From positions 1 to 46,256 of the IMG/VR virus record IMGVR_UViG_3300025151_000067: a stretch of DNA of 46,256 nt; one strand, written 5' to 3'. This DNA comes from a virus. How positions within the stretch are numbered: the stretch's first letter is position 1; every line of letters begins with the position of its first letter. A program made the translations under genes and the position numbers. A model generated the notes under the pieces. It had not been told where the DNA came from. It saw nothing but the letters and a program-made list of their open reading frames with translations, and did no database searches. Positions 1-44,554 of this stretch are shown here, in pieces.

Positions 1-1128
1 GTTGTATCGCTTCCCAGTGCCTCAGGCCTCAATACACTTTTGGCACAGCGTGAATGGGTTTCTAACTATGAAACTGTCGTACTCATGCTCGACCAAGACG
101 ATGCTGGACAGCAAGCGATTGAGAAAGCGGCACGAATCGTGGGTACGGGCAGATGCAAAGTGGCAACGCTTAAGGGATGCAAGGATCCATCAGAACTACT
201 CCTTAGCCACGGACCCGAAGCTGTCGTGGAGAGTATATGGGGCGCTAAAACGTGGTCCCCTGCAGGAATTGTCATGGGTGAAGAGGTCTGGGAACAGTTC
301 AAAGAACGCAAGAACGTTGAGTCGGTTCCTTACCCTGATTGCCTTGCAGGACTCAATGAGAAACTCAAAGGGATAAGATATGGTGAAATTACTTTGTTTA
401 CCTCTGGCACTGGTAGTGGTAAGTCTACTGTCATTAAAGAGATTATTCTTGACCTTCTTGCTAAGACAAGTGATAAAGTTGGACTCATTAGTCTGGAAGA
501 AAGTGTTGGAGATACAGCCGAAAAGTTTATCTCCATGCAGCTTAAACGTAACATCATGGATACTCCAACAATTGATGAGAGCGAACTCCGTAGAGGATAC
601 GAAGCTGTGTTTGGTGACGAGAGACTGGTTCTCTTGGATCATCAAGGCTCCGTTGGGGACGCATCTCTTATCGATAAGATTGAGTACATGGCCCTTATGG
701 GTTGCAAGTACCTCGTTCTTGACCACATTACTATCGCAGTGTCGGAAGGTTCTGAAGGGCTTTCTGGTAACGAAGCGATTGATAAAGTAATGTCTGACCT
801 ACTTAAAGTTGTAAAGAAACACAACGTATGGCTAGGCCTTATTAGCCACCTGCGTAAAGCTCAAGGAGGAAAAAGTTTTGAGGAAGGACATCTCGCATCT
901 ATCGATGATATCAAGGGCAGTGGCTCGATCAAACAGATCTCTTTCGACATCGTTGCCTTCTCAAGAAACCTTGTTGCGGAATCAGAAGGGGAAAGAAACA
1001 CAATCACCTTCAAGGTTCTCAAGTCCAGATTCACAGGGCTTACTGGACCTGCAGGTTCCGCTACATACGACAACAAAACTACCAGACTAATTCCTCGTGG
1101 TGGTTTTGAAGAATGCTTTAATATCTAA
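1..1128 (+). CDS. Replicative primase-helicase, T7 gp4-like (5' end cut by window)
   Basis: The frame is open from base 1 to the TAA at 1126-1128, giving 375 C-terminal residues; the first ATG at 40 lies inside the gene. The first ~60 residues look like the end of a Toprim primase domain (LMLDQDDAGQQA, the acidic DxD-type metal site). After a linker comes a RecA/DnaB-type helicase with Walker A GTGSGKST at about 404-427, Walker B-like YLVLDH near 711-728, and the arginine-rich SHLRK and FSRN segments near the end. In T7-like phages such a protein unwinds the fork and makes primers. It is followed 13 nt later by the RNA polymerase on the same strand, so both belong to the replication/transcription arm that enters from the left. 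Whether the N-terminal zinc finger is present cannot be seen. Confidence 0.9.
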   Translation, partial: VVSLPSASGLNTLLAQREWVSNYETVVLMLDQDDAGQQAIEKAARIVGTGRCKVATLKGCKDPSELLLSHGPEAVVESIWGAKTWSPAGIVMGEEVWEQFKERKNVESVPYPDCLAGLNEKLKGIRYGEITLFTSGTGSGKSTVIKEIILDLLAKTSDKVGLISLEESVGDTAEKFISMQLKRNIMDTPTIDESELRRGYEAVFGDERLVLLDHQGSVGDASLIDKIEYMALMGCKYLVLDHITIAVSEGSEGLSGNEAIDKVMSDLLKVVKKHNVWLGLISHLRKAQGGKSFEEGHLASIDDIKGSGSIKQISFDIVAFSRNLVAESEGERNTITFKVLKSRFTGLTGPAGSATYDNKTTRLIPRGGFEECFNI

Positions 1129-1141
1129 CAAAGGGGATTAT

Positions 1142-3460
1142 ATGAATCCATTCGAATCTATTTCAGAGTACCTACTTGATAAGGTCAACAGGGTTAATCC
1201 AAACAACCCTAAGGCAAACTCAGGTGGCGTACTTATGAAATTATATAAAGACTATAGAACGGCAATGCCTGACTTAGTTTCGGTAGCCTTTCAAACAATA
1301 CAAATGAGATTCACCTATGATACCTCGGATAGTCCTGCAGGGACTGCACAATTAACAGCCGTGTCTACAGCAATTGGACAACGTGTAGCACGTATAATCA
1401 AAAGGGAGCCACCTGTTCTTCCGTGGAATATGCATGTAAGATTAGGTGATCTCTTTATAGAAGCGTTTTATAACTGTGGCTATATAGATATATACTACCC
1501 CAAGACAAGGGATACTAGTTATATCATATCAGCTACAGCTAAATGGATTGACCTAGCTGATATACCTGAGGCAATGTCCAGGATATCACTAGCACATACC
1601 GTCTTAGAAAGACCAGATAGAATAAGAAAGATAATACAAGCAGATAATGAACCCCTAATCAAAGAGTGGACTGAGGAAGACAACCCTGAGTTCCTTACTA
1701 TGATGGGGACACCCTGGATTACATCTGTTGATAAGCTTCAACGAACAGGCTGGAGAATAAACCAGCGTGTTTACGATGCACTCATAGAGAATAAAGATTC
1801 TTTTGTTTCATCAATTCCCATAGAGGACAACGATGCGAAGGAAATGAAACGAAGAAGCAAACTCGTTGAGTGGGGGTTCATAACAACCAAGGCTAAAATG
1901 CTGTATGACAAAGATGTATTCTATCAGTTCATGCAAGCAGACTACCGTGGTAGGTTATACTATTCAGAGTCCTTTCTAAACTACCAAGGATCTGACCTAG
2001 CCAGAGGCATGATGACCTTTGCCAGAGGGAAACCTATGACTGAAGAAGGACTTTTCTGGTTGGCTGTACACACAGCTACCTGCTTTAATCAAAGTTATAA
2101 CTTAGATGAAATACCAGAGTGGTGTGAGGCAGACTACAAAGGATACTTGGAAGACGAAAAGCTAGAGTCAATAAGTGTGGATAAGTTTACCCTTGAAGAC
2201 AGGGTACGCTGGACAAACGATAACATGGATGTCCTAACAGAAATGGGTAGCAGGTCAATCGTTACTGATATGGCTGAGAAACCTGTGTCTTTCCTTGCCT
2301 GTTGCCTTGAGTGGTATGATTACCAACGGGCAACAAAGGATAATAGAATCCACATAAGCCACCTTCCAGTACCCATAGACGGGTCTAACAATGGTTGGCA
2401 GCATCTAGGTGCTATTTCTAAGGATGTCCAGACAGGAAGGCTTGTAGGGCTGATACCTGTAGAAATACAACACGACTTCTATGTGCAAACTGCTAAACAA
2501 CTTTATCATCTTACTACTGATGAACGTCTTAAGTGTATCCTTGACAAAATGCCAATGAAACATATACGAAAAGCTATATCAAAACGTGGAAGCATGACAA
2601 GAGCATACTCTGCAGGTGCTAAACGGATAGCTGAGAATATGTTCTTTGACTGTAAGGCTGAAGACTTTCATATAGAATACGGTATAACACAAGATGATTG
2701 TGACAAGCTGGCAAAACTATTGATAAAAGCAATCAACATAGTATGCCCAGGCCCCCTACATACAATGGCCTACTTGCAGAGACTAGCACAATACGAGATA
2801 GGTGAATATCAAAAGTACGATAAGGATGATAACCCCGCTGGACCTGATTACAAACAACTGGTTAAAGACCAGAAAGCTTTGTACACTAAGAAGGACAAAA
2901 CAGATGAGGAAATAGAAGAGCTTAATCGACTTACTGTACTAATGAAAACTTATAAGAGTAAACTCATTCATGGTAATGGCAGAGATAAGATCACATGGGT
3001 AACACCATCAGGATTTAAAGTTATCTATGCAAACTATACTACAGCTACACGTAAATGTAGAGGTACTATAAGTGGATACAAGTCTGAATCTAAGGGACAC
3101 AAAGGAGTAAACCATGTGGCAAGAGTACCTACGAAGACCCCTGACATTCGCGGATTTATGTGTGGTGTCAGTCCTAACTATATCCACAGCCAGGATGCAA
3201 GTCATATGGCTTTGGTTATTGAGGAATGGAATGGTGATTTCGGAGCAGTACATGATTCCTTTAGTACTCATGCATGTGATGTCGAAGCACTCCTAATGAG
3301 GACCAAGCAGAGCTTTATCGAAATGTATGATAAAGAGAATTACTACGACTTGATACAACAGAACATCATCACTGATGCAACAAACCTTGACGTAGAGCAA
3401 CCAGAACTAGGTGAACTAGATGTAACTCAGATATATGAATCTGATTATTTCTTTGCCTAA
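1142..3460 (+). CDS. T7-type single-subunit DNA-directed RNA polymerase
   Basis: 772 aa. The start at 1142 (MNPFES) follows an AAAGGGG ribosome site; an earlier in-frame ATG at 1097 lies inside the helicase gene and is less likely. All signatures of the T7 family are visible: the DxxGR motif (ADYRGRLY), motif A with catalytic Asp413 (PIDGSNNGWQHL), motif B with Lys481 and Tyr489 (ISKRGSMTRAYSAG), and motif C with HSQDASH and catalytic Asp705 in VHDSF. The Lys-to-Tyr spacing of 8 equals T7 K631-Y639. The glycine that usually follows that Tyr is Ser here. It is expected to transcribe middle/late phage genes from phage-specific promoters, which I could not define. Length is somewhat below T7 (883 aa), mainly at the N-terminus. 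Confidence 0.97.
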   Translation: MNPFESISEYLLDKVNRVNPNNPKANSGGVLMKLYKDYRTAMPDLVSVAFQTIQMRFTYDTSDSPAGTAQLTAVSTAIGQRVARIIKREPPVLPWNMHVRLGDLFIEAFYNCGYIDIYYPKTRDTSYIISATAKWIDLADIPEAMSRISLAHTVLERPDRIRKIIQADNEPLIKEWTEEDNPEFLTMMGTPWITSVDKLQRTGWRINQRVYDALIENKDSFVSSIPIEDNDAKEMKRRSKLVEWGFITTKAKMLYDKDVFYQFMQADYRGRLYYSESFLNYQGSDLARGMMTFARGKPMTEEGLFWLAVHTATCFNQSYNLDEIPEWCEADYKGYLEDEKLESISVDKFTLEDRVRWTNDNMDVLTEMGSRSIVTDMAEKPVSFLACCLEWYDYQRATKDNRIHISHLPVPIDGSNNGWQHLGAISKDVQTGRLVGLIPVEIQHDFYVQTAKQLYHLTTDERLKCILDKMPMKHIRKAISKRGSMTRAYSAGAKRIAENMFFDCKAEDFHIEYGITQDDCDKLAKLLIKAINIVCPGPLHTMAYLQRLAQYEIGEYQKYDKDDNPAGPDYKQLVKDQKALYTKKDKTDEEIEELNRLTVLMKTYKSKLIHGNGRDKITWVTPSGFKVIYANYTTATRKCRGTISGYKSESKGHKGVNHVARVPTKTPDIRGFMCGVSPNYIHSQDASHMALVIEEWNGDFGAVHDSFSTHACDVEALLMRTKQSFIEMYDKENYYDLIQQNIITDATNLDVEQPELGELDVTQIYESDYFFA

Positions 3461-3719: not shown

Positions 3720-3770
3720 AAAAGCCCCTACTAGTTTCCTTAATTGGATTCTAGTAGGGGTATTTTTTTT
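3717..3770. terminator. Bidirectional intrinsic terminator between convergent arms
   Basis: A perfect 10-bp inverted repeat, cccctactag (3725-3734) and ctagtagggg (3751-3760), with a 16-nt loop. It is followed on the plus strand by a run of T (3763-3771) and preceded by a run of A (3718-3723) that serves as the T run for the opposite strand. It lies exactly between the stop codons of the plus-strand arm (3719) and the long minus-strand late arm (3770), so it can end both transcripts. Confidence 0.9.
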
Positions 3771-6700
3771 TAATGTGAGTAATACTGATAAATTAAATTA
3801 CCAGCTTTAATAGCAGCATCAATTTTCTTAAATAGTTTTTCCTTATCAGCTTCTGTTTTATTTATAAAATTAGTAAGCCTTTCAGGTAAGCCTATTATTT
3901 CTTCCATTAACTTATTAAACTCTTTTAGTTCTCCAAGAGTAACAGTTTGAAGATTGCCTGTCCATTCCTCTTTATTAAATGCTTCCCTTCTTCTAATTGT
4001 TTCAAGAAGTCTTTTCAGTTCACCTCTTGCACGAACTCTTTTTATCCATTGATCTTTGCCCTTCTCATTCTTCACATCTTTCTGCTCATTAGTATATTTT
4101 GAAAGCTTGTTTTCTAGATTTACAAAACCATCTTGTTCAAAATCCCACTCTGCAAAATAAGACATCATAAGAGTATCATTAGGATTGGTTAGAACTGTAT
4201 CATCGGAAGTATTCTTCCACTTATCTTTAAAGTTTCTTTTAGATTCATAAAAAGAATCCCTTGCTGCTTTAAGGTAAGACCATTTCCTATTAACCTCATA
4301 CCAATTTCTATTTGCCTCTTTCAATACGACATCGTAAGACATAGCATCAACTTTAAATGCATCGTATACTGTATGTATATATGGGTTGCCTCTCGACTTC
4401 CCAACAAGTTCATCCCAAGATTTACCAGTAAGAACCTTTATAACAGTTGCTGCATCTAATGAGTGTATTGGAGAAGGAACAGATCCACCATAGGCTACAT
4501 CCCCAGGGGTTTCATCAATACGAGTTCCTTGACCAGACTCATCCCACGGCTCATCTTTTAAATCAACTTCACGCCTTTTAGGAAAAGCAGCAGTTGGTTG
4601 TTCATCATATCTAGAAATACTACGATGTTTATAACCACCCGTATTTGTTTTCTTTGAAGGATCTATTGGTACTCCATCTCTGATGTCCATAAGTATTCTA
4701 GGAAACTCTGTCCCCCAGAAACCTTTGTCTTGAGTATGGGTTAATTCAGATCCACGAGTATCTAAAAGGGCTTCCATAGCATCAGGGTTTTGTTCGAAGC
4801 TTGCTCTAATCATAAGCTCCATTAAGTTAGAGCTTTTCTCTTTATCAACTTTAAATAACCCTTCATGTTTTGTACCATGAAGCCACTTTTTATTATAGGT
4901 TACTTCATCAAACTTACCAGACTTCCAAGTTTGATAAGCATGTTCAACTGATTGATATAACCTTCCTTCTTTATCTTTAAATGGACGAGCAGCAAGGTTA
5001 CTTAGAACAGCGTTCTCATCAGTTCCATAATAAATGTTTATAGAGTTATCACTACCTTTAACTGGAACCCAGATTTTATACTGTTGTCTTGTATCAAAAC
5101 CCGTAGTCATAGAACCACCAAGGTTTAGTTCAAAACCTGTTGCCGATATTAAAGACATTGGCTCATTATACATTGCAGCCATACCTGCTACAGATCTCAT
5201 TAAAGACCTAGACTCTTGAAACTCAGGAGATAATGTTTGTACTAAACCATCAACATATCTTTTATGTAGAGCATCCACAATAAAAGTTGTATTCATCCCA
5301 GACAATTTCATAAACTCATCTAATAATTCAAACAAGTATTCTTTTTTAAGATTGCCTGATTTTTGATCTTCATCCTTTTGAACTCTAGATTCTTCAGATA
5401 AAATATGAAGGGTTGGTTCAATATCTCTTTTAAATGATTCTAATTCTCGACCATAAGGAAACGTCATTGTGGTTTGCTTATTAAGGTCTCTATTAGCATA
5501 TATAATTCTAGCTATTTTCTTTAAAAGTACTATTGAAGCCCTACTATTTTCACCAGAACCTAGCTTTAACCCTTTCCAAGGTTCATTGTTTACTAGGTTA
5601 ATAAGATTATCTTTTAATTCATCACGAATATCTTTATTATTATCTAGAAAATACTTACCTTGTGTCCTTAGAACACCTGTCCTAAAGGCCATTATTTCAT
5701 TTCCTAATTGTAAACCATTGATAGATAAACCGCTGGTCTTACCATCCATCATTGAATTAAAATGAGTATGAAACTGCCAGTTACCTTCACTATCTTTTTT
5801 ATTTCTAGCGTCAATGTAATTAGCAAAATCAATTAAACCATCAATAAATACTTGTCCATCCTCACCTTTCTTTCTAATAGCTTTAGCTAAATCAGATTCA
5901 TTTGCAAGAACAGATGACCACTTAGGAAATTTTGGAAAGTTTTCATTAACCCTACCATCAATCATTAGGGGAACGTTGTTATCAATAGCTTCAGAAACCG
6001 TCTGGACATCTGCATCGGAAATGGTATCCATAGCTTCCCTTAGTTTTTTACCCCACTCATATAGCTTTGTTTCATTTGCTTGTAGTGCATTCTCTCTTTC
6101 TTCAGGTAGTAGATCAGCAGCACCATCAACTAACTCGTTTGCATACATCTGTCGTAAGTTTTTATGAACTCTTATTCCAAACGTTCCTTTGTTGCTTACA
6201 ATAGAAGGAGCAGGATTTCCTGTTACAAACCTTGCAGTCTTTGAACGAGTAGGGTTTAATGTGTTTTGTTGTGGATCAGAGATACGACCTGAAAACGCTT
6301 GTATATAATATGTAAAGAAGTTAGCACCTTTTCGTTCTAAATTAACTCCAAAAACATCTTGAGCTAGTTTATTAATTAAAAGTGCATGGTTTTCTTTTAC
6401 ATAATCTATAAGAGCTTGGTCTTTTAATCCCTTCATTCGTGCTCGACCAACAAAAACATTAATAGTATCTTGACCAACATGGTTTAGATCAGACAATCCA
6501 AAATCATCTTTAATAGTGAACCTAATATTACCAGAGTTATCTCTTTGTACTATAAGATTTCCTACAACTTCTGATAAGACAGGGATAGCTGTAGCAAAAA
6601 GTATTTTAAGCCTACGAGGAATAACTAAGTTCCCTACAGTTGATGCATTTTCCGCAGCTTCATTCATTAGTTCAGCACCAACAACAGGTTTCATTGCTCC

Positions 6701-7927
6701 TGAAACCCTTTTAAGATTTCTTCCTGGGTCTCCTGTTAGTCTTCCTTTTGGTAACGGATTCTTAGAAGTTCTTACCTGTTGTTTTGGAAACATTACAGAT
6801 CTTATATCTGCTCCTGCACTTAGTACCTGTTCTCCATAGGGAGTAATACGAAATCCTCTCTGCCATTTATCTCCTTTTGACTTACTAGGGATTCTAACCA
6901 TTTCTATTATAGGGTTTGAAGCACTATCATTAGCAGCAAAATAAAGTTCTTTTACAATGTCTCCAATAGTTTCTGCATCTTGTGGAGATAGATCTTTATA
7001 GTCTTCATTGCCTTTTATTTTTTGATAGTGTTGGTGTACTCTCCTACCAATTTCTCTTCTTCCCTGAGACTTGGGAACAATCTTAGTGATTTGATTTCCC
7101 TTTTTATTTCTACCAATTACAATATTAGTATCGTCCTGCATTTGAGGATCTAAATCAGCATAGGCTATACCATCTTCCATTGACAAGGTTGCGAATGCAT
7201 CTTCAGCAACAATAGAAGCAATTTGTAGAAAATCTCTATCAGGTTGTTTTGTTTCTGGATTAATAGCACCAACAGCAGTTAATGCATTTTTTACTACACT
7301 GTTAGAAGCATCTGTTAAACCATCAAGTCCAATGTTTCTTGATTCTACATGTGCTGCTAGGTTTGCTGCACGTTCAAAGATACCACCATCTAGTTCAGAT
7401 GAAGTGTCATTTATTGTATCTGCTGCTTCAGTTGTTATTCTACGTTGTTCACGGGACCTGTTTGTTAGGTTATTATGAACATCCCAATGTTGGTTTTTTG
7501 GAACAAAGGATTCCATAGCGGAAGCTGGATCATCACCAGCCTCCCATAATCCTTCTTGTGTATTCCGTTCTGCGTATTCTATTGCTGCTTTAGGAGACGT
7601 AAGATTTATTTGTTCTTGTCTTTCCCTAGCCATTGCAGCATCTTGATCAGCAGTTGTTGTATCTTCTATTCCAGTATCAAGATCCGTACCTTGGGTTACA
7701 TTAAAACCATCATTAATGTTTGATTCAAATTCAGGAGAAGGATCAACAGATCCCTCTGCTTCTATTGGTGTGATACTATCAAACAAGGAGAGTTGACCGC
7801 CTGAGTCTTTTTCGTCTATGACACTGCTTTGTCTTTCTGGTTGTTTTAATATTTCCGCTTCTCTTGCTTTGCTTTCAACTGTGGTAATATCACCAGCTTG
7901 CTTAAGAGTACCTCTAGGTGCAGCCAT
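3770..7927 (-). CDS. Putative virion-packaged single-subunit RNA polymerase with inserted NADAR domain
   Basis: 1385 aa, starting in a TAATG overlap with the upstream gene after AAAGGAGATAA. It lacks an obvious annotation at first glance but carries the T7-fold polymerase signatures in order. These are the xxxGR motif (AFSGRISDPQQN, Arg548), motif A (MMDGKTSGLSI, Asp728), motif B (NKQTTMTFPYGRE, Lys817 and Tyr825, spacing 8 as in T7), and motif C (SPIHSLDAATV followed by HTVYDAF, Asp1189). Residues ~960-1085, between motifs B and C, are a NADAR-type domain (AVLSNLAARPF, YQSVEHAYQTWK, then GFWG and ILMDIRD). The first ~400 residues are acidic and unassigned, and contain SLFDSITPIE at 47-56. 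As last gene of the internal-virion-protein block it resembles N4 virion RNA polymerase, though far shorter than N4's ~3500 aa. Virion location is inferred from position; the polymerase fold is well supported. Confidence 0.85.
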   Translation of the reverse strand: MAAPRGTLKQAGDITTVESKAREAEILKQPERQSSVIDEKDSGGQLSLFDSITPIEAEGSVDPSPEFESNINDGFNVTQGTDLDTGIEDTTTADQDAAMARERQEQINLTSPKAAIEYAERNTQEGLWEAGDDPASAMESFVPKNQHWDVHNNLTNRSREQRRITTEAADTINDTSSELDGGIFERAANLAAHVESRNIGLDGLTDASNSVVKNALTAVGAINPETKQPDRDFLQIASIVAEDAFATLSMEDGIAYADLDPQMQDDTNIVIGRNKKGNQITKIVPKSQGRREIGRRVHQHYQKIKGNEDYKDLSPQDAETIGDIVKELYFAANDSASNPIIEMVRIPSKSKGDKWQRGFRITPYGEQVLSAGADIRSVMFPKQQVRTSKNPLPKGRLTGDPGRNLKRVSGAMKPVVGAELMNEAAENASTVGNLVIPRRLKILFATAIPVLSEVVGNLIVQRDNSGNIRFTIKDDFGLSDLNHVGQDTINVFVGRARMKGLKDQALIDYVKENHALLINKLAQDVFGVNLERKGANFFTYYIQAFSGRISDPQQNTLNPTRSKTARFVTGNPAPSIVSNKGTFGIRVHKNLRQMYANELVDGAADLLPEERENALQANETKLYEWGKKLREAMDTISDADVQTVSEAIDNNVPLMIDGRVNENFPKFPKWSSVLANESDLAKAIRKKGEDGQVFIDGLIDFANYIDARNKKDSEGNWQFHTHFNSMMDGKTSGLSINGLQLGNEIMAFRTGVLRTQGKYFLDNNKDIRDELKDNLINLVNNEPWKGLKLGSGENSRASIVLLKKIARIIYANRDLNKQTTMTFPYGRELESFKRDIEPTLHILSEESRVQKDEDQKSGNLKKEYLFELLDEFMKLSGMNTTFIVDALHKRYVDGLVQTLSPEFQESRSLMRSVAGMAAMYNEPMSLISATGFELNLGGSMTTGFDTRQQYKIWVPVKGSDNSINIYYGTDENAVLSNLAARPFKDKEGRLYQSVEHAYQTWKSGKFDEVTYNKKWLHGTKHEGLFKVDKEKSSNLMELMIRASFEQNPDAMEALLDTRGSELTHTQDKGFWGTEFPRILMDIRDGVPIDPSKKTNTGGYKHRSISRYDEQPTAAFPKRREVDLKDEPWDESGQGTRIDETPGDVAYGGSVPSPIHSLDAATVIKVLTGKSWDELVGKSRGNPYIHTVYDAFKVDAMSYDVVLKEANRNWYEVNRKWSYLKAARDSFYESKRNFKDKWKNTSDDTVLTNPNDTLMMSYFAEWDFEQDGFVNLENKLSKYTNEQKDVKNEKGKDQWIKRVRARGELKRLLETIRRREAFNKEEWTGNLQTVTLGELKEFNKLMEEIIGLPERLTNFINKTEADKEKLFKKIDAAIKAGNLIYQYYSH

Positions 7928-10900
7928 TATTTATCTCCTTTAAAATTCCAATTAGGTAAAGACACATCAGACAACGCCTCCTTTATATTACCTGCTGCTT
8001 CTACAACACGAGGAGGACCACCAGCTACACCAATAACAGGTGTTAACCTTCCAATTTGTGCAGCAGCATCTCCTACTTCTCCTTGTGATAGAAATCTACC
8101 AGCATTAAATAAACGCTTTCCGATACCTGATGCAGGAGCTTCACCCGCTACGGTTTTAAATGCCCAATCCAGAGGGCCTTTAGTTCTCTCTTCATAAAGA
8201 TCCATACCCATTAGGTCAAGCATACGCTCAGAGACTCCAAGTAATCCAGAAGAACGAATACCACGTTGAATATACTCAGATGTTTCTAAGTATGGATTAC
8301 CAAGTGTTTTCATTTGTTTATCACTTCCAGCAAACTTAATTAAATCTTTAAGATACTGAGAAGCAAACCCAAGCATGATCATTGTAGTCATTAAAGCAAA
8401 GGCATTGTATTTCATTGAGGGGTTGCCTCTACGTATATAATGTCTCCACAACTTTGGAATATGGTTACTTGAAAATGTAGCTATGAATCCTTGAAACTGT
8501 GTGAACAAAGCAAACCTTGGATCCTGATAGATCAATGGTCTGTTTCCAACAGTAGGCAATGCTACAGCATCATTGATAAAATTAAATGCACCAGTTCTAA
8601 AGTTATCTATAAGAATAGATGCTCGTTCTGGAGGCATAGCTTCTAGGATTTCATCAAAGGATGCATTAGGGTTTTTTTCTAAAAGATTAAACTCTGCTTC
8701 TTGAAACTCTCCAAAAAGACGAACTGCATCATCAACATTAACACCAATGTTTCGTAACATCTCTTCGGATTCTTGTATATCGTTATCCTTAACTAATTGT
8801 GGATTGCTAGATTGTAAAAATCTAAATTGATATATTTTATTTATATGATCTAACATAAAATCAAACGCAATAGAAGCTCTCATAGCACGAGTCATGTTAG
8901 TCCATCCAGTAAGACCTGTCATTTTAAAGAACAGTTCATACCATTTACGATGTAGGGGATTCATTTCTGACACACCTGTTACAGTAGCTGCACCAACATC
9001 CCATTCGTAATAGCCAAGATCTCTTATTATTCTCTGGCCTCTGGATTCATTTGTGTTAGGATTAACTTTCCATCGCACAGTGTTTCCCGTAAAGCCCATA
9101 AAGTCTGCAAGAGTTTGACCCATTTCTCTACCAAAGGATTCAAGAGTTTGACGACCTGATTGTTTACCCTTTCGCCCCCAGATTTGTTCTCTAGTAAGAG
9201 CACGACCTGACAATGCAATTTCTACAAAAGATGATACAGTTGCTAAACCAAGCATAGCAAATGATGCTAAGAACATCATATTCTTTTGAACAGCTACTGC
9301 TGTTTTACCACCTTCAGTTGTAGGTCTTTTATAGTTTCCAGATTCAGCATTTAAAAACTTTCTAATTCTTGATGCTATCTCATCGACTACTTCTCTAGGA
9401 ACACCGTCATCAAATTCCATTTTATCTAAAAGAGAACTTACTATTTCACCGTTCTCTCCAATAAATTTTCTATGGGCTACATAACGAGCAGCAGATTTTG
9501 CTGCATTAGAAATGTTTGCAAAGATATCTTGCTCCATAAAATCTTGGAAAGCATCCTGCTCTGACATAGCCAAGGATCTTTTACGATGTGATCCAGGAAC
9601 AATACCACCCTTAGTAACATTAAAATCTTCAGTTAAAACATCATCAATGGTGTTTATTTCTTCATTGTCTAAAATCCTCTCTGTAAGTTCTTTCGCTTTA
9701 GCTCTAGTCATACCACGACTACCATAGGTTTCAACCAGTTGTTTTATAAAACCTTCTTTATCGTTGGCTACAGATTCTTTACTTAGGGTTTTAAACTTAA
9801 AGAGATAGTTTTGAATATAACCAAGTTTTTTATTATAATCAACTTGATCATTATACATAGCATCAGAAAGTTGATTTAAAGATGTACCCAATTGTTGTAT
9901 TAACGCAACCAGTTCTGGGCTTGCCCAATTAGGTTCAACCTTATTAATCATTTCTTCTATCATTGATGGATCAAAGACACCATCAGAATTAATAGCCCCT
10001 TTTAAAATCTCATATAGTTTTCTACTTATCTCTCCTCTTTTACTTCGGCTTGTTGGTCTGTTATTATTAAGAGCAGCGTAGACAACATCGTGTCGAGGAA
10101 CCATCATACGATACTTAGCAGTACGATCATGTTTTTCAGATTCAAAATCCCTTCCAGAAAAAGACTTCTCATGTGCAGAATCAAATATAGAACCAGTTAT
10201 ATCTCCACTATTTGATTCGTCTCTCCAACGATCAGGCATCATTATACGAGATACCTTTCTCCATAACTTAACACTTCCTTGTAAGGTATTGTCTAACACA
10301 CTTTTAAAAGAAGTATCTACAGGGGCAGCTTCAGCACGATCCGCACGATCATTTATGTTTGTTATATCTGCACGTTTTACTTCTTGATCCTTTCCTCTTA
10401 CTTTAGAAGAATTCTTTTTTGCTGTTTTCCATAGATTGTATTTATAATCATCTATCTTTTCCTGTATTTTTTCCTGTATTACAGACTCTGGTTCTCCTTG
10501 ATTATTTTTTCTAGTTGACTCTTTAATATGTTTTATTTTTTGTTGATAGTTTTTTATAGGGTTTGATGAAGATTTAATTCTTCTATCAATCTCTCTATCA
10601 ATTTCTTCTTTTGATTTATTTTTGAATGTCTTACTATTTCGTACAGTGGATGCTATATTTTGTTTAGTACTTTCCCACTTGTTTAGTAAATAATTCATAC
10701 CAGATAAGAAAGGAGTTCCATCTTTTTCGTGTTGTTCTTTTTCAGCTGCCCACGCTTCTCGACTTAAATCTTTACGACCTTTTATGGTTTCAACATGGTC
10801 TCTTTCTTCAGCAAGTTTTTCAGAATTAGATTGAATTCTTTCACCTTCTTTTGCCCGTTGATGGGCGTAGTTTTCAATATCTGCTTCTTGAAACGCATCA

Positions 10901-12633
10901 AGATTAGAAGCATCATCAATCTCTCCATTATCTATCATAGAGATAATTTTTTCTTGTTTAGCTAATTCATAAGCAGCATCACGATTAATCTTTCTTTCTT
11001 CTTCTGCTCTTGCACCTGCTTCAGATATTCGTTTAGCCTCTGCAGGTTGTTTTCTTACTTTTAAATCTACCCAAGCACCAGTATCATATACAGCCCCTGG
11101 TATGGAAAAACCTATACCAAGAGTTTTACCAGCAATTCCTCCAGCAATAATACGATCTATGAGTTCATTATAATTAAAAGTCTTATCAGAACCCAAGGTT
11201 GCTGCAGTATATGCTGTGGCTTCTTGTAATGCTTCTGTTGCCCCCTCACCAAGGCCACCTCTTAAAGAACGTGTGGCAAGGTTTTTAAATATTGCTTTTG
11301 AAGTTATTTGAGAGGCAGCAGCTTTTGCAGCATCACCTGTAAATTCTGAAACAGATTTACGTGTTGCATTACCAACCATTTTTAAAGCAGTTTCTCTAGA
11401 AACCATCTTACCTTTCCAACCATTCTTTACAAGGTTTTCAACAGCTTCTTCCATAAGTTTCTTTGGATGTACTCCACTTTTAAAAATTGCGTGAAGACCA
11501 AGCCTATCTAATGCCGCTTGCATAATACCTGATGCAGCAGCTACGCCCATATTCTTTTTGCCTTCCATCTCATTCCAAGTTTGAGCAGCATAAATAGATG
11601 AGGGTGCTAGAAGACCAGCAGCTAGTGTTGTACCAGCAGCAACTGTTGCGCCAGCCCCAAGAGCAGCAGCACCTGTTCCAACAATAGGAGCAGCTAATAC
11701 AGAAGCAGCTGTTATACCCATATAGGGTAAAGACATAATAGCATTGTTTACAACATAATCAATACCGTCACTGAAATCATCAATGTCTTTCCAATCTACA
11801 ATACTAGTACCGTATTTGGCTAAACGTTCACGATTACGTTCAACACCTAATCGACCTGCTTCAGCATGGTATTCATTGTCAGTGAGTTCTCCCCACATAT
11901 TTTGTAATCCTGCAGCAGCTTCTTTTACACCGATAAGTGCTTTATCCCAACTGTCAGAATATGGATTTAAAGATACATTATCTAAAGTACGATTTGGGTC
12001 TCTTTCTAAAACTTGATTTTGATCATAATAAGCACCTGCCCCAAGAGCGTTTGCTTGAGCTAACTCAGCTTCATCTTCAGCAACACGCTTTAAGCCAAAC
12101 TGTTTATACCCTTCTTTTACTAGGGCTTCATCAATCATAAACCTTGCCTTATCCCAATCATCTTCCTTTACATCAAAGCCCATACCAGACGCAAGGAACT
12201 CTTGGTCTCTTTGCATTTCACCTAAACTGTGGGTAAGATCTTGTACTTCAGTTGTATATTTAGTTGGATTATAAATTCCTTCTTGAAAAGCACGAGTGCT
12301 CCATGACTCACCTTCAGAATTTTGAAAGTCAGCCATAGTACGACCAAACGGATCAATTATTTTTTCACCATTTTCGTCTAATAATGGTTTTGCATTAGTG
12401 TATCCAAGCTTATTCATTAACTCGTACACAGCATCTGTGGTTGCTGCACCACCTGCTTCACCACTTTTCCACTCGTCTTTTATTAGCTTTTCAACTTCAG
12501 GAGCATCTGCACCAGGGAGTCTATATTTCTCCCCAGTGCTGTCATCAATAACAGTATCCGCATCTAGAAGACGAAGGGTTGTACCTTCTAGTATTCTAGT
12601 TTCAATTGGTTGTATACTATCAAACATTGACAT
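7927..12633 (-). CDS. Large internal/ejection virion protein with N-terminal staphylococcal-nuclease-like domain
   Basis: 1568 aa; ATG preceded by AAGGAGAACTAAC. Residues ~15-115 match the SNase (thermonuclease) pattern: LLDADT (Asp24/Asp26), YRLPGADAPE (Arg38, Asp43, Glu46) and DPFGRTMADF (Arg98). The Arg-Asp-Glu spacing of 5 and 3 equals R35-D40-E43 of staphylococcal nuclease, so activity is plausible. The rest resembles a podovirus ejection protein. It has a Gly/Ala-rich hydrophobic stretch (~300-350), long charged coiled-coil-like stretches (~540-760), and further hydrophobic segments near ~1116-1143 and ~1409-1434 that could insert in the cell envelope. It begins MSMFDSIQPIE, a tag nearly repeated in the downstream polymerase. 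The role in DNA ejection is inferred from size, composition and position. Confidence 0.75.
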   Translation of the reverse strand: MSMFDSIQPIETRILEGTTLRLLDADTVIDDSTGEKYRLPGADAPEVEKLIKDEWKSGEAGGAATTDAVYELMNKLGYTNAKPLLDENGEKIIDPFGRTMADFQNSEGESWSTRAFQEGIYNPTKYTTEVQDLTHSLGEMQRDQEFLASGMGFDVKEDDWDKARFMIDEALVKEGYKQFGLKRVAEDEAELAQANALGAGAYYDQNQVLERDPNRTLDNVSLNPYSDSWDKALIGVKEAAAGLQNMWGELTDNEYHAEAGRLGVERNRERLAKYGTSIVDWKDIDDFSDGIDYVVNNAIMSLPYMGITAASVLAAPIVGTGAAALGAGATVAAGTTLAAGLLAPSSIYAAQTWNEMEGKKNMGVAAASGIMQAALDRLGLHAIFKSGVHPKKLMEEAVENLVKNGWKGKMVSRETALKMVGNATRKSVSEFTGDAAKAAASQITSKAIFKNLATRSLRGGLGEGATEALQEATAYTAATLGSDKTFNYNELIDRIIAGGIAGKTLGIGFSIPGAVYDTGAWVDLKVRKQPAEAKRISEAGARAEEERKINRDAAYELAKQEKIISMIDNGEIDDASNLDAFQEADIENYAHQRAKEGERIQSNSEKLAEERDHVETIKGRKDLSREAWAAEKEQHEKDGTPFLSGMNYLLNKWESTKQNIASTVRNSKTFKNKSKEEIDREIDRRIKSSSNPIKNYQQKIKHIKESTRKNNQGEPESVIQEKIQEKIDDYKYNLWKTAKKNSSKVRGKDQEVKRADITNINDRADRAEAAPVDTSFKSVLDNTLQGSVKLWRKVSRIMMPDRWRDESNSGDITGSIFDSAHEKSFSGRDFESEKHDRTAKYRMMVPRHDVVYAALNNNRPTSRSKRGEISRKLYEILKGAINSDGVFDPSMIEEMINKVEPNWASPELVALIQQLGTSLNQLSDAMYNDQVDYNKKLGYIQNYLFKFKTLSKESVANDKEGFIKQLVETYGSRGMTRAKAKELTERILDNEEINTIDDVLTEDFNVTKGGIVPGSHRKRSLAMSEQDAFQDFMEQDIFANISNAAKSAARYVAHRKFIGENGEIVSSLLDKMEFDDGVPREVVDEIASRIRKFLNAESGNYKRPTTEGGKTAVAVQKNMMFLASFAMLGLATVSSFVEIALSGRALTREQIWGRKGKQSGRQTLESFGREMGQTLADFMGFTGNTVRWKVNPNTNESRGQRIIRDLGYYEWDVGAATVTGVSEMNPLHRKWYELFFKMTGLTGWTNMTRAMRASIAFDFMLDHINKIYQFRFLQSSNPQLVKDNDIQESEEMLRNIGVNVDDAVRLFGEFQEAEFNLLEKNPNASFDEILEAMPPERASILIDNFRTGAFNFINDAVALPTVGNRPLIYQDPRFALFTQFQGFIATFSSNHIPKLWRHYIRRGNPSMKYNAFALMTTMIMLGFASQYLKDLIKFAGSDKQMKTLGNPYLETSEYIQRGIRSSGLLGVSERMLDLMGMDLYEERTKGPLDWAFKTVAGEAPASGIGKRLFNAGRFLSQGEVGDAAAQIGRLTPVIGVAGGPPRVVEAAGNIKEALSDVSLPNWNFKGDK

Positions 12634-12644
12634 GTTAGTTCTCC

Positions 12645-15600
12645 TTAATCGAATTTAAGTCTATCATTTACGTAAGCCATAAACGGAGAGATCCCTTGTT
12701 TCTTTGCTTCTTTTTCCCAGACTTCCATCATCTTTTTATCAATGGTGATTGTCTTCTTATCATTGGGGTTAGAAGAATCAGGATCAGGAACTTGATAAGT
12801 TTGTCCGATAGCAAACGAAGTACTAAGACCGCTTAAGATTTTATCAAGAGCTTGCCTATCGTTAACTCCTTTTCCTATTATGGGGACCTGACCATTAGCA
12901 ATGCGTTTTACATCGTTTTGTTTAGCAGTAGATAAGATATTATCTGTAAAGTCTTTTACAACATCATAGCCTACTGATTCACCATTCTGCGTAAACAGAT
13001 TAGCGTTTCCAACAGTGGCTGTGATATAAGCACCATCCAGATATTTCTTTATATTCTTAACTTCACGATCATCATCATTGTTTAAACGATCTTGTTTTTC
13101 CTTTAGCATTGCAGCTAATCCTGAGTTTAAAAACTCATTTGCTTTAAGAGCACCTACATTATTTCTACGTCTCCATTCAGCTACTTGAATAGCAAGTTGA
13201 TCAGAAGATGCATCAAGTTTTAGATTAGGATTATCTTCATCTTCATAACGCTCCATCCAATTTTCAATTACATCTGAATAGTTCTTACTATCTTTAATCA
13301 CAAAATCATCAAACTCATCAGTTCCAGGGATCTGAGATTTATCAGTATTCCATTTTGCTGAATTTATAGGTTTACCAGTTCTATCAAGTAATACTTTCTT
13401 GGTAGTGTTACCATCTACAATTGTATACTCAGCAGCTTGAATTGCAGATAGCTTCCCTGTTGTTGGATCCTTTTGATAGTATGTTTGGAATAGATCGTTT
13501 TGAGTTACTTCTGGTAACACATCCTTTTTAATTAACAAAGAAGAATCAGCTTTTTGTGTCTTAGGATCCCAAGAATCATTATACGCTTGAATAACTTCAG
13601 GTGAATAATTACCTGACTCTGCAATTCTAGTAACATTAGCTTCATGTTTAACATAAGCTGTTTGGTATTGCTTACGTTGTTCTTTATTAAGAGTTTTTAT
13701 ATGATCTAGTTTTTGCTGTTTAAGTGAAGCCTTAAGAACTCTTGCTTCTTTGTCAATCTCTCTCTTTAATGCTCTTTCTTCTCTACGCTTTAGTCTATCT
13801 TCTGCACGTTCTTCCTTAGCAATTTCTCTTTCAAGTTCTTTTGCTGCGGCATGTTTTGCATCGACTCTTTCAACGTATTGTTTAGCAGCAAAGTTCATAG
13901 ATCCATTATGAGATCCACCCATTAAACGAGAACCAACATACATAATAGCCATACGGTGAAGTTCACCTTTATCAAAGAGATCACCAAAGATAGTTTGCAT
14001 CATACCTTCGACTTTACCAACATCGTCTGCGTTGGCATTTTGTCCTGCTTGTAATGCACTATCTGCTGTTTGACCTTTTGTTGTACCATCGTCTGGTAAG
14101 TTATCATCATCAGCTATGATTTCATTAGCAATGTTTACAGCTTCTTCTTCACCATCGACTGCAGCTATAGCACTATCAATAGCTTCAGTAGTACTTGTAC
14201 CACTACCAGCTAGGTTAGGCTTAGGTGGTTCGTTTAAACTAGGAACACCTAAATTCTCTTCGTCCATGTCTTCTGGGTCTTCACCCGTAGTAACTGCATA
14301 TCTTGGAGTGAAATCATTATCACCCATAGGGTCAACCATACCAAGTAAAGCTTCCTCGGCTTGTGCTGCTTGATCTAAATCTTCATCTTCAGTACCAGCG
14401 AGTTGTAATCCAGAATCAATTACCTTTTGTTGTTCAGCATCTTGATCAAAATCTTCATCTTCACGTTCTTGGTAGTCACCTAGTTCTATAAGCTCTTTAT
14501 CAATAGCTGCTAAAACAACAGGATCTGTTTCATTCTCTCTTTGATTCCTTAAAGATATTTTTCTTTGAGTATCAGCAAGAGCTTTTTCTTCTTTAAGCAT
14601 TAAAGTTTCACTGTCTGTACCAGCTTCTTTATCTTTTAAATAAGATTGATATGCATTGTTTTGTTTAATAGTTTTTTCATATTGAGCTAACTGGTACTGA
14701 TATGCTTGATCACTGATCTTGCCATCAGCTTTTCTTTTACCTAGATCAGATAAGAAGTTTGGATCAAGATATTTACTGTTTTGATTAACAGGTTGTGGGT
14801 TCCCTAAAGAAGTATAGGCCACATCACCATAATTTTTCTTTGGTCCATATTGTGAACCCATAGATCTATTATCGCCTTGCATTTTAGGACTAGTCATCCA
14901 AGGGGCATATTCTTCTAACACTGCCATTTGTTCAGCATCCTGATCCATGTCTTCGTCTTCAAGAACAGGAGGAACGTTTTCTATCTTTGGTACACCAGCA
15001 TCAGCCTTCGGTACACCAGCATCAGCAAACTCATTTGCTCTAACAATTTCTTCTTGTGTTGCAACAGGATCACCAACTAAAGGCGAACCTTCTGCATTAT
15101 TAAGATTAGCTGCATGAAGAGGACCCGCTGGGTCTTTAGCTAACTCCCCATTGTCTTTAATACGATACCACTCATCACCTACTTTTTGATAGTTATCTGT
15201 TTTTCCAAACTTATTAAGACTGCGTATAATAGGAGCAGATTGGGGTGTTTCATTATCTCCCCAGTTTATGTTTGGATTCATACCTTGTGACACACGTTGT
15301 CCAACAGATTGTGAAAGAGGTTGCCAAGGTGTGTTAAATAAGATATTTTCATCACGCCTACGATTCTCTAATCCTGGGATTACTTTTCCATCAGCCATAC
15401 GAAACTCTGCAGCTTCCTTTTGGAAAGCTTCAAAGTCACCTGCATTAAGAGCAGCACGAGCTTTACTGTTAGCAAACTGTGGACCACCAATATTATATAT
15501 CAATGATTTAACAGCAGCTTCTTGGTTGGGATTAAGATCAGCCGTGACAAGATTATTATAATCACGATCAGTAACTGCCATTTCTTCAAGAAGTCTAGCA

Positions 15601-16529
15601 TTAGCAGCTTCTTCAGTCATGGTGTCACCCATCTTAACACCCTTAGTAAACCCGTAACCAATTGTTGGGATACCTGCAGAATCTAAATAGGCTTCATTAC
15701 GGAACCCTTCTTTATCTTTAAGAAGATCCATGTATACCTTATTAGACATAAGTGGGTCTGGTCTTGTAGGTGTTGTAGGTCCTGAAAGGTTAGCTTTATT
15801 TTGAAGACTAGGAATTCTTTCATCAAAGATTTCTTTAGCTGTTCTGGCAGGTTCATTATTGTTACCAGAGAACATCCCTAGTAAACTATCTAACCAACCA
15901 CCTTGGTTCATATACACAGGACCACCACTAGCGTACTCAGTTGGTTCTAATGACTTACTACGTTCTTTAGATGCCTTAATAGCTTCATCAATTGTATCAT
16001 AAACACCTGTAGGATTTAGTTTTCCTAATTGAATTCCTTCTCTTAAGAAATCCTCATTACGCATAACGCCATCTTGAATAGAAGGAATGTTATATATTTT
16101 TCCTAGTCCTACTGGCATAGTGCTGATAGGTATAGACCTACCTTTTTCAGATACATATTCACCTTCATCTGTACGGAAAATAGGTTTTCCATACTGCGTA
16201 TAGTTGCCTGTAGGTTTTCCAACTTGACCACCATGTGCAGAGTACTCAGGGATTGAACCCCCTTGTTGTTCCTGTACAGCACGACCAACATTGTTCATCT
16301 GCTCTATCTGTGGCTCAAATATACGAGTAGCTTCAGCGTTCATTACATATTCACCAGGGGTCAACCAAGCAGGGACTGTATCAGTTCCTTTAGGATCTCC
16401 TGGATGATCAGGAATACCTTCCATCATAGGAACTGATGTCATGTTGATTTCCAAACTAGGATCTTCGAAAAATTCAAAGGAAGTCATGTTGCCATGTCTA
16501 TCTTTTTTCGTAAAACTTTTCAGCTTCAT
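12645..16529 (-). CDS. Internal virion protein with embedded GH24 lysozyme domain
   Basis: 1294 aa; start after AAAGGAGAGTTAC. The N-terminal part has VPAWLTPGEYVMN, a motif often seen in phage structural or tape-measure-like proteins, and GGPV/GGQV turns. Residues ~262-395 form a T4-type lysozyme (GH24): KDKEGFRNEAYLDSAG then TIGYGFT. Catalytic Glu274, Asp283 and Thr289 have the same 9 and 6 spacing as T4 lysozyme E11-D20-T26. The middle is acidic and has three copies of an EDEDxDQxA motif (~523, ~688, ~713). A long Lys/Glu/Arg-rich coiled coil spans ~893-963. It is probably packaged in the virion to open peptidoglycan during DNA entry; a separate lysis endolysin exists at 26625-27068. The domain call is firm, the virion role inferred. 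Confidence 0.85.
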   Translation of the reverse strand: MKLKSFTKKDRHGNMTSFEFFEDPSLEINMTSVPMMEGIPDHPGDPKGTDTVPAWLTPGEYVMNAEATRIFEPQIEQMNNVGRAVQEQQGGSIPEYSAHGGQVGKPTGNYTQYGKPIFRTDEGEYVSEKGRSIPISTMPVGLGKIYNIPSIQDGVMRNEDFLREGIQLGKLNPTGVYDTIDEAIKASKERSKSLEPTEYASGGPVYMNQGGWLDSLLGMFSGNNNEPARTAKEIFDERIPSLQNKANLSGPTTPTRPDPLMSNKVYMDLLKDKEGFRNEAYLDSAGIPTIGYGFTKGVKMGDTMTEEAANARLLEEMAVTDRDYNNLVTADLNPNQEAAVKSLIYNIGGPQFANSKARAALNAGDFEAFQKEAAEFRMADGKVIPGLENRRRDENILFNTPWQPLSQSVGQRVSQGMNPNINWGDNETPQSAPIIRSLNKFGKTDNYQKVGDEWYRIKDNGELAKDPAGPLHAANLNNAEGSPLVGDPVATQEEIVRANEFADAGVPKADAGVPKIENVPPVLEDEDMDQDAEQMAVLEEYAPWMTSPKMQGDNRSMGSQYGPKKNYGDVAYTSLGNPQPVNQNSKYLDPNFLSDLGKRKADGKISDQAYQYQLAQYEKTIKQNNAYQSYLKDKEAGTDSETLMLKEEKALADTQRKISLRNQRENETDPVVLAAIDKELIELGDYQEREDEDFDQDAEQQKVIDSGLQLAGTEDEDLDQAAQAEEALLGMVDPMGDNDFTPRYAVTTGEDPEDMDEENLGVPSLNEPPKPNLAGSGTSTTEAIDSAIAAVDGEEEAVNIANEIIADDDNLPDDGTTKGQTADSALQAGQNANADDVGKVEGMMQTIFGDLFDKGELHRMAIMYVGSRLMGGSHNGSMNFAAKQYVERVDAKHAAAKELEREIAKEERAEDRLKRREERALKREIDKEARVLKASLKQQKLDHIKTLNKEQRKQYQTAYVKHEANVTRIAESGNYSPEVIQAYNDSWDPKTQKADSSLLIKKDVLPEVTQNDLFQTYYQKDPTTGKLSAIQAAEYTIVDGNTTKKVLLDRTGKPINSAKWNTDKSQIPGTDEFDDFVIKDSKNYSDVIENWMERYEDEDNPNLKLDASSDQLAIQVAEWRRRNNVGALKANEFLNSGLAAMLKEKQDRLNNDDDREVKNIKKYLDGAYITATVGNANLFTQNGESVGYDVVKDFTDNILSTAKQNDVKRIANGQVPIIGKGVNDRQALDKILSGLSTSFAIGQTYQVPDPDSSNPNDKKTITIDKKMMEVWEKEAKKQGISPFMAYVNDRLKFD

Positions 16530-42364: not shown

Positions 42365-44554
42365 TTACATATTCTCCTGTGGCTGCTGTGGAGCCATCTT
42401 TTGTTGTGACTGTTGTTGAGGTGGGCTTAGGATTTGCCTAGCTAACATAATAATCTGGTCATACCCAGGATGTTCTGGTAACTCTGCACCCTCTTTGGTT
42501 GCTTTAATTTGTAAGTCTGCCCATTCTTGAAAGTGCTTATCAATTGACACTGCAAGTTGTTTAGCATTATCATCCATAGTGTTTTTAGTCTGAGCACCTG
42601 TATAAACAACGTTTGCTTCTGACAAAGCAGCTTCTGCCTGAACTTTTCGTTTGGCTATTTCTTTTTCTTCTTGAGCTTCTTGTTGTTGCGCTTGAAGTGC
42701 CTGTGCTGCTTTTTCTTTAAACTCATCAGTATTATAATTTTCTAAGAAATCATTACTGTCAATATCCATAGCTTCAATTAATTTAGTAGCTAATACTGCA
42801 GGAGCTTCTGGTTTAACAACCATACCTGCACCTTGTTGAGCAAGGCCAGGAAGTATCTCTGCACCAATACGGCTATATTTTTGAATCAAAGAAGAATTAG
42901 AGTTTTCACCTATGTCTAGTAGTACTTCTAAATCCATAGTCGATGGTAGTGTTGACATATCAATGGTCTTATATACACCATCCATATTGTAATTAACAGT
43001 TCCTTTAGTATGACTACGCATTGTAGAATAAACACCAGCTAATAGGCGTTTAAATCCTGTTTCTGCAAACCTACGAGCAATGTGTTGAATACGTTTCTGT
43101 GCTGCTGATTGAACAGCTGATAGTTTCTGCTCTGAGTTTCCAGATACATAAAGAGTATCATTTAATCCTTGAGCAGCTTTTGACATACCCGTAGCTTGTT
43201 CTTTAATAAGCTGTAGATGTTCAAGCAGTGGAACTGTACCAGTTGAAATTGTTTCTGGTGGAAGTTGTGCTACTGCTGCTGCAGGATTTCCATTAGTTGG
43301 AATAATTTGCTTAGGTTTCATATTCTGCAATGCAGAGAAATCTACCACATTAGGATCAGCCAACTTTGGCGAATAGTTAGTGAGGTAGGTATTCTCTACA
43401 AAACCACGTAGTATGGCGGTCGATGCCAATGTAGAACTACGTGTAAAATCTGCCATTGATAAACCATAAAATTCAAATGGAATATCAATAGGGACAATAG
43501 AAGCCATAGGGACTTCATCGCAATCTTCTTCGTGTAGGATATGAGAACCTGCTATGATAAAATGTTTTAGTTCTGCAATACCATCACCATCACGATCAAC
43601 GTTCATCCAGCACTCTGTTACAACAACTTCACGATTAGCTTCCAGTGGAAGTATTTCCTGTTGCATAGATCCTTGATAATATTCTTGACCTGTGACTTGT
43701 TTACGTGCAGCAATATCCTGAGAGTATTTTGTGTTTCCTACCCAGGAATCATCACCAAGCTCATCCCACTCATCGATGTTATCAGCAACATCAGGATAAT
43801 ACTTACGAATCTCTGAACGTGTTAGTTCGGTTTGCATACCAACAAAGGTAGCACTATCAATGCATGTAGCATCTCTGGAGATACGAAAGTTTTCTGGTGG
43901 GACCAGTTCAATTTTAACACGAGACTTATCAATCCGTTTACGTATACGGACATTTATATACATGAGTTCGACTTGGGATTCAAAAGAATCATCTGGTTCA
44001 CTTACATTTTCATATTCTAAGTCACCAACAATTTCTACTCCGTCCTCCGCTAGAAGTTCATCTAGATTTGGTTGACTGATGCGCTCGTATTCTTCGAATA
44101 CGTAATCGTAATCTTCAACATAAGACCATCGGCATACTGCATTCTTCCACAGAAGAGCCGCTTTCATCCACTGTTGAATGATTTCCCAACCATCATTCTT
44201 TTTAAACACACAGTAATTGGTTACGTCAGATGCATCCTTTGCAGCCTGAATTGCTGCAGGGGAACTTTCCCAAGGCATAAACCTAGCCAATCTTTTATTT
44301 GACAAAAAGAGATCAGATAATACTGCAGTGTATGCCTCTACTACTTCTGTGGTTGATGTATCCACAATAGTACTTACGCCCTGTGGGGACAGGTGATAGT
44401 CAGCAACACCAGCATATTCATAAGTTGCCTTAAGTCTTTCTCTTGCTAGTTCAGATGAATTAAGCCAATCGCCTGTAGAGTTCTGAACACCAGTCTCTAC
44501 CATGTTGATTAGCTGTTCATCACTAACAACTTCTTTGTATCCATCGGAGGCCAT
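42365..44554 (-). CDS. Portal protein (729 aa)
   Basis: The start overlaps the preceding stop as TAATG behind AAGGAGG. The body shows the podovirus portal pattern: DTSTTEVVEAYTAVLSDLF, VELVPPENFRISRDA-like PPENFRI, VTECWMNVDRDGDGIAELKHF, and DIPFEFYGLSMADFTRSSTLASTAILRGF. QGLNDTLYVSGNS and KRIQHIARRFAETGFKRLL follow. The C-terminal ~130 residues are Gln/Glu/Ala-rich coiled coil (QALQAQQQEAQEEKEIAKRK), suited to the barrel, and end in a Gln/Pro-rich tail. Twelve copies form the DNA gate of the head. It is coupled to a 46-aa gene in front. Confidence 0.93.
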   Translation of the reverse strand: MASDGYKEVVSDEQLINMVETGVQNSTGDWLNSSELARERLKATYEYAGVADYHLSPQGVSTIVDTSTTEVVEAYTAVLSDLFLSNKRLARFMPWESSPAAIQAAKDASDVTNYCVFKKNDGWEIIQQWMKAALLWKNAVCRWSYVEDYDYVFEEYERISQPNLDELLAEDGVEIVGDLEYENVSEPDDSFESQVELMYINVRIRKRIDKSRVKIELVPPENFRISRDATCIDSATFVGMQTELTRSEIRKYYPDVADNIDEWDELGDDSWVGNTKYSQDIAARKQVTGQEYYQGSMQQEILPLEANREVVVTECWMNVDRDGDGIAELKHFIIAGSHILHEEDCDEVPMASIVPIDIPFEFYGLSMADFTRSSTLASTAILRGFVENTYLTNYSPKLADPNVVDFSALQNMKPKQIIPTNGNPAAAVAQLPPETISTGTVPLLEHLQLIKEQATGMSKAAQGLNDTLYVSGNSEQKLSAVQSAAQKRIQHIARRFAETGFKRLLAGVYSTMRSHTKGTVNYNMDGVYKTIDMSTLPSTMDLEVLLDIGENSNSSLIQKYSRIGAEILPGLAQQGAGMVVKPEAPAVLATKLIEAMDIDSNDFLENYNTDEFKEKAAQALQAQQQEAQEEKEIAKRKVQAEAALSEANVVYTGAQTKNTMDDNAKQLAVSIDKHFQEWADLQIKATKEGAELPEHPGYDQIIMLARQILSPPQQQSQQKMAPQQPQENM

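Follow-up and report, generated by a model that had tools for sequence, protein, structure and literature searches.

Why a tailed phage would build a domain of the ADP-ribose-removing NADAR family into the catalytic core of an RNA polymerase that probably travels in its virion is the question raised by the locus described here. It lies in a 46,256-nt stretch of viral DNA (IMG/VR record IMGVR_UViG_3300025151_000067, positions 1 to 46,256; hereafter the window), and related sequences are denoted by L numbers. Most descriptions of phage NADARs and anti-DarT factors concern genes of their own, whose products act only once they are expressed. If the reading developed below is true, a NADAR carried inside a virion polymerase would be at work ahead of all phage gene expression, which would mean that defence by ADP-ribosylation exerts pressure from the first minutes of infection onwards.

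A Single-Subunit RNA Polymerase Encoded with Inner-Virion Genes

The gene in question (window 3770..7927, minus strand) encodes a 1385-aa protein which, from its open reading frame and an AlphaFold2 model, is a single-subunit RNA polymerase of the virion type with an embedded NADAR. Motif A lies at aa 726–734 (5726..5752, minus strand; DGKTSG, with D728), motif B at aa 817–826 (5450..5479, minus strand; KQTTMTFPYG, with K817, Y825 and G826) and motif C at aa 1187–1194 (4346..4369, minus strand; VYDAFKVD, with D1189). Invariance was judged in an alignment of 13 homologues, where DGKT of motif A, the K, M, Y and G of motif B and the D of motif C (D728, K817, Y825, G826 and D1189 among them) do not vary. 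An HSxD motif at aa 1155–1158 (4454..4465, minus strand), with the NADAR upstream of it, matches H784-S785-x-D787 of T7 RNA polymerase.

The model of aa 190–1385 (pLDDT 80, pTM 0.71) aligns by VIA with T7 RNA polymerase (1H38) at Z 26.7, 3.6 Å over 529 residues, and with the N4 virion RNA polymerase (2PO4) at Z 22.3, and its palm/fingers fold together with motifs A, B and C places the protein in the single-subunit (T7/N4/mitochondrial) class. That placement rests on structure and motifs because sequence-profile alignment to T7-like polymerases is weak: hhalign gave a probability near 0, yet paired motifs A and B correctly. Foldseek gives the full model low TM-scores (0.3–0.5), probably as a consequence of domain arrangement and insertions, and the VIA alignment was used in their place. 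The Pfam virion RNA polymerase families (PF21769, PF21867, PF21624 and PF21894) return no match to the 1385-aa protein up to E=1, so although it seems to function in the manner of a virion RNA polymerase, it falls outside the N4-type Pfam families.

The polymerase is the final gene of a late inner-virion operon, and its start codon, preceded by GGAG, overlaps the stop codon of the gene upstream (TAATG). That gene (7927..12633, minus strand) encodes a 1568-aa inner-virion or injection-type protein that is syntenic in relatives and matches the virion structural family phrog_6958 (1.1e-15); it is preceded by a 1294-aa inner-virion protein with a phage lysozyme domain (12645..16529, minus strand; PF00959, 8.8e-33), and the SU10-type portal protein is encoded at 42365..44554 (minus strand; PF23899, 1.4e-132). 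Convergent with the polymerase gene is that of a separate, 787-aa T7-like RNA polymerase (1097..3460, plus strand; PF00940, 2.2e-54), beyond which lies a DNA primase/helicase gene cut by the window end (1..1128, plus strand; phrog_239, 9.3e-106). Gene order is conserved among the relatives that carry the polymerase, within the reach of their contigs. The first-pass annotation had called this a virion polymerase; operon position, synteny and the overlapping start codon suggest, indirectly, that the protein is probably packaged in the virion and injected with the DNA.

Several other features of the region were seen in passing. A 731-aa late protein of the structural operon (16542–18737, minus strand) contains a Hint/intein-like domain (PT-HINT, aa ~372–508), possibly an intein or autoprocessing module, and a ribonucleotide reductase large subunit is encoded within the late structural region (24830–26575, minus strand). 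The N terminus of the 1568-aa protein appears by eye to be staphylococcal-nuclease-like (LRLLDADTV...YRLPGADAPE), and the giant RNA polymerase L005 starts in much the same way, so that this may be a further injected domain which the two have in common. In the nearest isolate, Roseobacter phage CRP-7, the syntenic gene (gp33; L137:5360-9067) encodes an unannotated 1235-aa protein with LYGK and IHDA motifs; it has no significant profile match, and on its motifs and position it is perhaps a very diverged virion RNA polymerase.

The Insert Is a NADAR Domain with a Phage-Type Active Site

The NADAR domain spans aa ~958–1085 (4673..5056, minus strand) and is identified by Pfam, PHROG and PDB profile matches as well as by its predicted fold. 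Pfam NADAR (PF08719) matches residues 967–1074 at E 1e-4 in the full protein and 2e-6 in the excised domain; both fall below the curated cut-off of 35.1 bits (28.6 for the excised domain), a miss that concerns a sequence-score threshold and is not a biological feature, being outweighed by fold and active site. The region also matches phrog_1017 (E 2.5e-9) and a DUF1768 (NADAR) protein of phage cr126_1 (2e-16). An AlphaFold2 model of aa 954–1101 (pLDDT 84.5) has E. coli YbiA (2B3W) and the NADAR structure 8BAU as its sole PDB matches with probability 1.00, and in VIA it aligns with ADP-ribose-bound 8BAU at Z 13.3 (2.4 Å over 130 residues), with YbiA at 12.6 and with 8BAT at 8.5, the best unrelated structure after these reaching only Z 3.2. 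The reading of residues ~960–1085 as NADAR, made from the letters, therefore holds by profile and by fold, structure prediction against YbiA and NADAR structures having been the proposed check. A search of the window for a second, stand-alone NADAR gene found none. Foreign base composition was considered as a mark of the insert and dropped: its GC content is 36%, as in the rest of the gene, and its GC3, in the top 3% of gene windows, is a weak signal that was not used.

Alignment with 8BAU, a Phytophthora NADAR, places E995 (4943..4945, minus strand) at the catalytic Glu E43 and K1002 (4922..4924, minus strand) at the essential Lys K50, and both are invariant in 68 of 68 NADARs. The third catalytic position (Glu E125 or Asp D171) is taken by H1064 (4736..4738, minus strand; 8BAU and T4 gp30.3 alignments), a His shared by 62 of the 68, and W1071 (4715..4717, minus strand) corresponds to the ADP-ribose-contacting W133 in 67 of the 68 rows, a gap in one truncated fragment being the only exception. 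The catalytic pocket residues are thus conserved among relatives. The pyrophosphate contacts of 8BAU (R79, W89 and R93) are unconserved in the insert by sequence alignment. Glu and Lys have been shown by mutation to matter in the E. coli C7 NADAR, and His is a hallmark of phage NADARs (PMC11543638).

T4 gp30.3 has the same Glu, Lys and His, and like it the insert consists of the core fold without a long extension; unlike gp30.3, which is the product of a separate gene and only 23% identical, the NADAR described here lies inside a virion polymerase. The fold (8BAT, 8BAU, 2B3W) and the Glu/Lys pair are likewise those of the DarT1-associated NADAR antitoxins and of YbiA, which nonetheless have Asp or Glu at the third position where the window NADAR has His. 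A further difference is that DarT1-linked NADARs carry a putative DNA-binding extension, missing from the ~130-aa, core-only insert. Neither an adjacent darT1 toxin gene nor any other ADP-ribosyltransferase (ART) gene was recognised in the window, so that the insert does not qualify as a DarT1 antitoxin by gene association.

A Clean Insertion between Motifs B and C

The first-pass annotation had argued for an inserted domain from the distance between K817 and D1189, 372 residues against 181 in T7 RNA polymerase. The figure of 372 is correct, whereas T7 is the wrong yardstick: homologues without NADAR have a B–C spacing of 207–250, so the real insertion amounts to about 125–165 aa, which the NADAR accounts for. 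The domain is absent from the nearest polymerases, L035 and L036 (50% identical over the body), and from about 25 others, and homologues 35–50% identical over the polymerase body lack it. The sharpest case is a pair of polymerases, L067 and L048, which share 88% identity outside the NADAR and differ precisely in its presence, a clean insertion whose junction reads KIFV[NADAR]TTPKSQVYG in L067 and KIFVDGKLTTPKSQVYG in L048. That a domain sits within the polymerase body is confirmed by this pair and by the homologues without it. The same B–C insertion, which the annotation had proposed to seek in related phage polymerases, was found in L046 and L067, and as these are independent assemblies an assembly chimera is ruled out.

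The insertion site lies between a TGFELNLGG segment and the HSxD motif, and the corresponding segment of T7 RNA polymerase is the one that contains the promoter-specificity loop. The stretches that flank the NADAR are of low confidence in the polymerase model, and the domain is on this account probably tethered flexibly.

The position raises the alternative that the domain serves transcription, aiding promoter or upstream-DNA binding from a loop equivalent to the T7 specificity hairpin, and is no hydrolase in vivo. The site itself would fit, as would its use by three polymerases (window, L046 and L067). However, the domain is dispensable for this type of polymerase, given the close homologues that do without it on intact flanks; in other homologues it is found close to the C-terminal end or is encoded by a gene of its own, and its catalytic residues are retained. 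We therefore regard a transcriptional role as very unlikely.

Mobility and Selection within the Phage Family

Within the family the NADAR takes several forms. In L001 it lies at the C terminus of the polymerase; in L074, whose ORF is cut at its 5′ end, it has a metalloprotease-like HEYMH segment on one side and, on the other, the conserved C-terminal tail of the polymerase (L074:1-1020); in L013, whose portal is 72% identical to that of the window, it is a separate 135-aa gene beside a polymerase without NADAR; and four near-complete relatives of 57–60 kb carry none. As to whether the NADARs at the B–C site go back to one ancestral insertion or to independent ones, the polymerase tree requires three changes, but AU tests do not reject a grouping of the fused NADARs of the family (p 0.36; 0.16 for the subset without L001), so either history may apply. 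Since NADAR recurs in further virion polymerases, also at different positions, and is absent from close relatives, the B–C site does not look functionally special.

The 787-aa RNA polymerase of L074 is 99% identical to that of the window, yet the L074 NADAR groups with that of L067. The virion polymerase of L046 shares only 35% identity with its window counterpart, against 93% for the neighbouring T7-like polymerase, and across L046, L067 and L035 the corresponding ranges are 35–50% and 84–93%. Divergence at such a rate suggests that modules are exchanged or that the host exerts strong selection on the virion polymerase.

A patchy distribution, with losses among close relatives, is also what a degenerate, functionless passenger could leave behind. 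This is the least probable of the explanations considered: E995 and K1002 are invariant across 68 NADARs, the domain has been recruited repeatedly, and dN/dS among the L046, L067 and L074 NADARs is 0.21–0.24, with a similar value for the polymerase body, so that the domain is under purifying selection. The patterns of placement, absence and dN/dS fit an accessory domain that is selected and swappable.

Recurrence in Other Virion RNA Polymerases

The fusion had been thought unique, and this did not hold. Besides L046 and L067, NADAR occurs in the N4-type L099, a protein with all four Pfam N4 virion RNA polymerase domains, in L005, a giant protein with single-subunit RNA polymerase motifs that is probably an N4-like RNA polymerase, and, at various positions, in about 20 distinct crAss-like ORFs with the DFDxD virion RNA polymerase motif. 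The crAss-like set includes L003, L012, L031–L034 and L072, some of them also with a cpYpsA SLOG domain, and the NADAR + DFDxD protein of crAss-like phage cr126_1 (QOR59539.1) is annotated only as ‘DUF1768 domain-containing’. These crAss-like polymerases (phi14:2 gp66 type) resemble the window polymerase in bearing NADAR, but belong to the unrelated double-psi beta-barrel class, and in the cases examined the NADAR lies outside the catalytic core.

The nearest described architecture is that of the N4 virion RNA polymerase (gp50) and its ART-fused relatives, which share with the window protein the single-subunit fold and a polyvalent architecture with ADP-ribose-related domains. Unlike gp50, the window protein has no sequence match to its families and is much shorter (1385 versus ~3500 aa), and where the N4-like relatives carry an ADP-ribose transferase it carries an ADP-ribose remover. 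Iyer et al. (2017) described the ART fusions to N4-like polymerases in their work on polyvalent injected proteins, in which NADAR goes unmentioned (PMC5512222); the window polymerase is like those proteins, multidomain virion components that combine early-life-cycle and counter-defence domains. A survey of 21,191 viral proteomes found viral NADARs outside RNA-virus polyproteins to be typically stand-alone (PMC9503650). In the RNA-virus polyproteins NADAR shares one polypeptide with an RNA-dependent polymerase, as it does here with a polymerase (PMC9503650), though there it belongs to eukaryotic-virus polyproteins and here it is inserted in the catalytic core of a DNA-dependent RNA polymerase. 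A literature search that reached few subscription papers found no description of a NADAR–RNA polymerase fusion. As a theme, the fusion extends beyond the single phage of the first-pass annotation.

Several unrelated virion polymerases of phages have acquired a NADAR, and this recurrence suggests that a counter-defence enzyme is delivered along with the machinery for the first transcription. Its occurrence in several virion polymerase types, including those of the crAss-like phages abundant in the human gut, makes this a general theme and not a curiosity. A stronger proposal, that unrelated phages have repeatedly built NADARs into injected polymerases and so couple the first round of transcription to clearing ADP-ribose from their own template or transcript, is put forward tentatively and with some doubt.

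Proposed Function and Candidate Substrates

On balance, we favour the reading in which a virion-packaged RNA polymerase carries a phage-type NADAR hydrolase as swappable counter-defence cargo, acting most likely on guanine ADP-ribose. The polymerase would be made late alongside the inner-virion proteins, would enter the host together with the ejected DNA and would transcribe the first genes, while the NADAR, entering in the same polypeptide, would be active from the outset, ahead of every early gene product. There it would hydrolyse the N-glycosidic bond of ADP-ribose, the likeliest substrate being guanines, in the incoming DNA or in the first transcripts, that a DarT1-like ADP-ribosyltransferase toxin of the host has modified, with soluble ADP-ribose derivatives as second choice. 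Dedicated DarT1 antitoxins have an extension for nucleic-acid binding that is missing here, so targeting may fall to the polymerase.

Published biochemistry bears on this choice in two ways. T4 gp30.3, for which the activity was shown in vitro, and all other tested NADARs hydrolyse guanosine-ADP-ribose in DNA and RNA (PMC11125620, PMC11833690), but rescue of E. coli from DarT1 in vivo was seen only with the C7 and EPEC NADARs and failed with T4 gp30.3 and YbiA (PMC11125620), so phage NADARs may have a target other than DarT1 lesions. Iyer et al. (2022) favoured soluble ADP-ribose derivatives as the targets of phage NADARs (PMC9503650), and the injected domain might accordingly act on cyclic ADP-ribose-type signals or NAD-derived immunity toxins, the polymerase being a mere delivery vehicle. 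The unconserved position of NADAR within the polypeptide would fit a vehicle, and other giant phage proteins combine NADAR with SLOG/cpYpsA, DUF4326 or LPD38 domains, of which the association with SLOG/cpYpsA or DUF4326 is of the kind from which Iyer et al. argue for soluble targets (PMC9503650). Yet the biochemistry cited here concerns guanine-linked ADP-ribose in DNA and RNA (PMC11543638, PMC11125620, PMC11833690), and RNA polymerases make up many of the fusion partners found; we consider a soluble target the less likely of the two, though credible.

The first-pass annotation had also named RNA polymerase as a possible target. NADAR would in that case reverse ADP-ribosylation of the phage or host enzyme by, for example, a competing phage or a host defence. 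Host RNA polymerase is modified by phage ARTs such as T4 Alt, and fusion of ART to N4-like virion polymerases has been described (PMC5512222). A protein target is nonetheless the less likely half of that earlier proposal, because the substrate of published NADARs is ADP-ribose linked to guanine in DNA or RNA, and they are known for guanine-base, not protein, linkages; moreover the window has no recognised ART gene, and we consider this explanation highly unlikely.

Our preferred reading of guanine ADP-ribose clearance by an injected NADAR polymerase predicts a testable substrate class, and nature provides pairs with and without the domain, L067/L048 and L001/L013.
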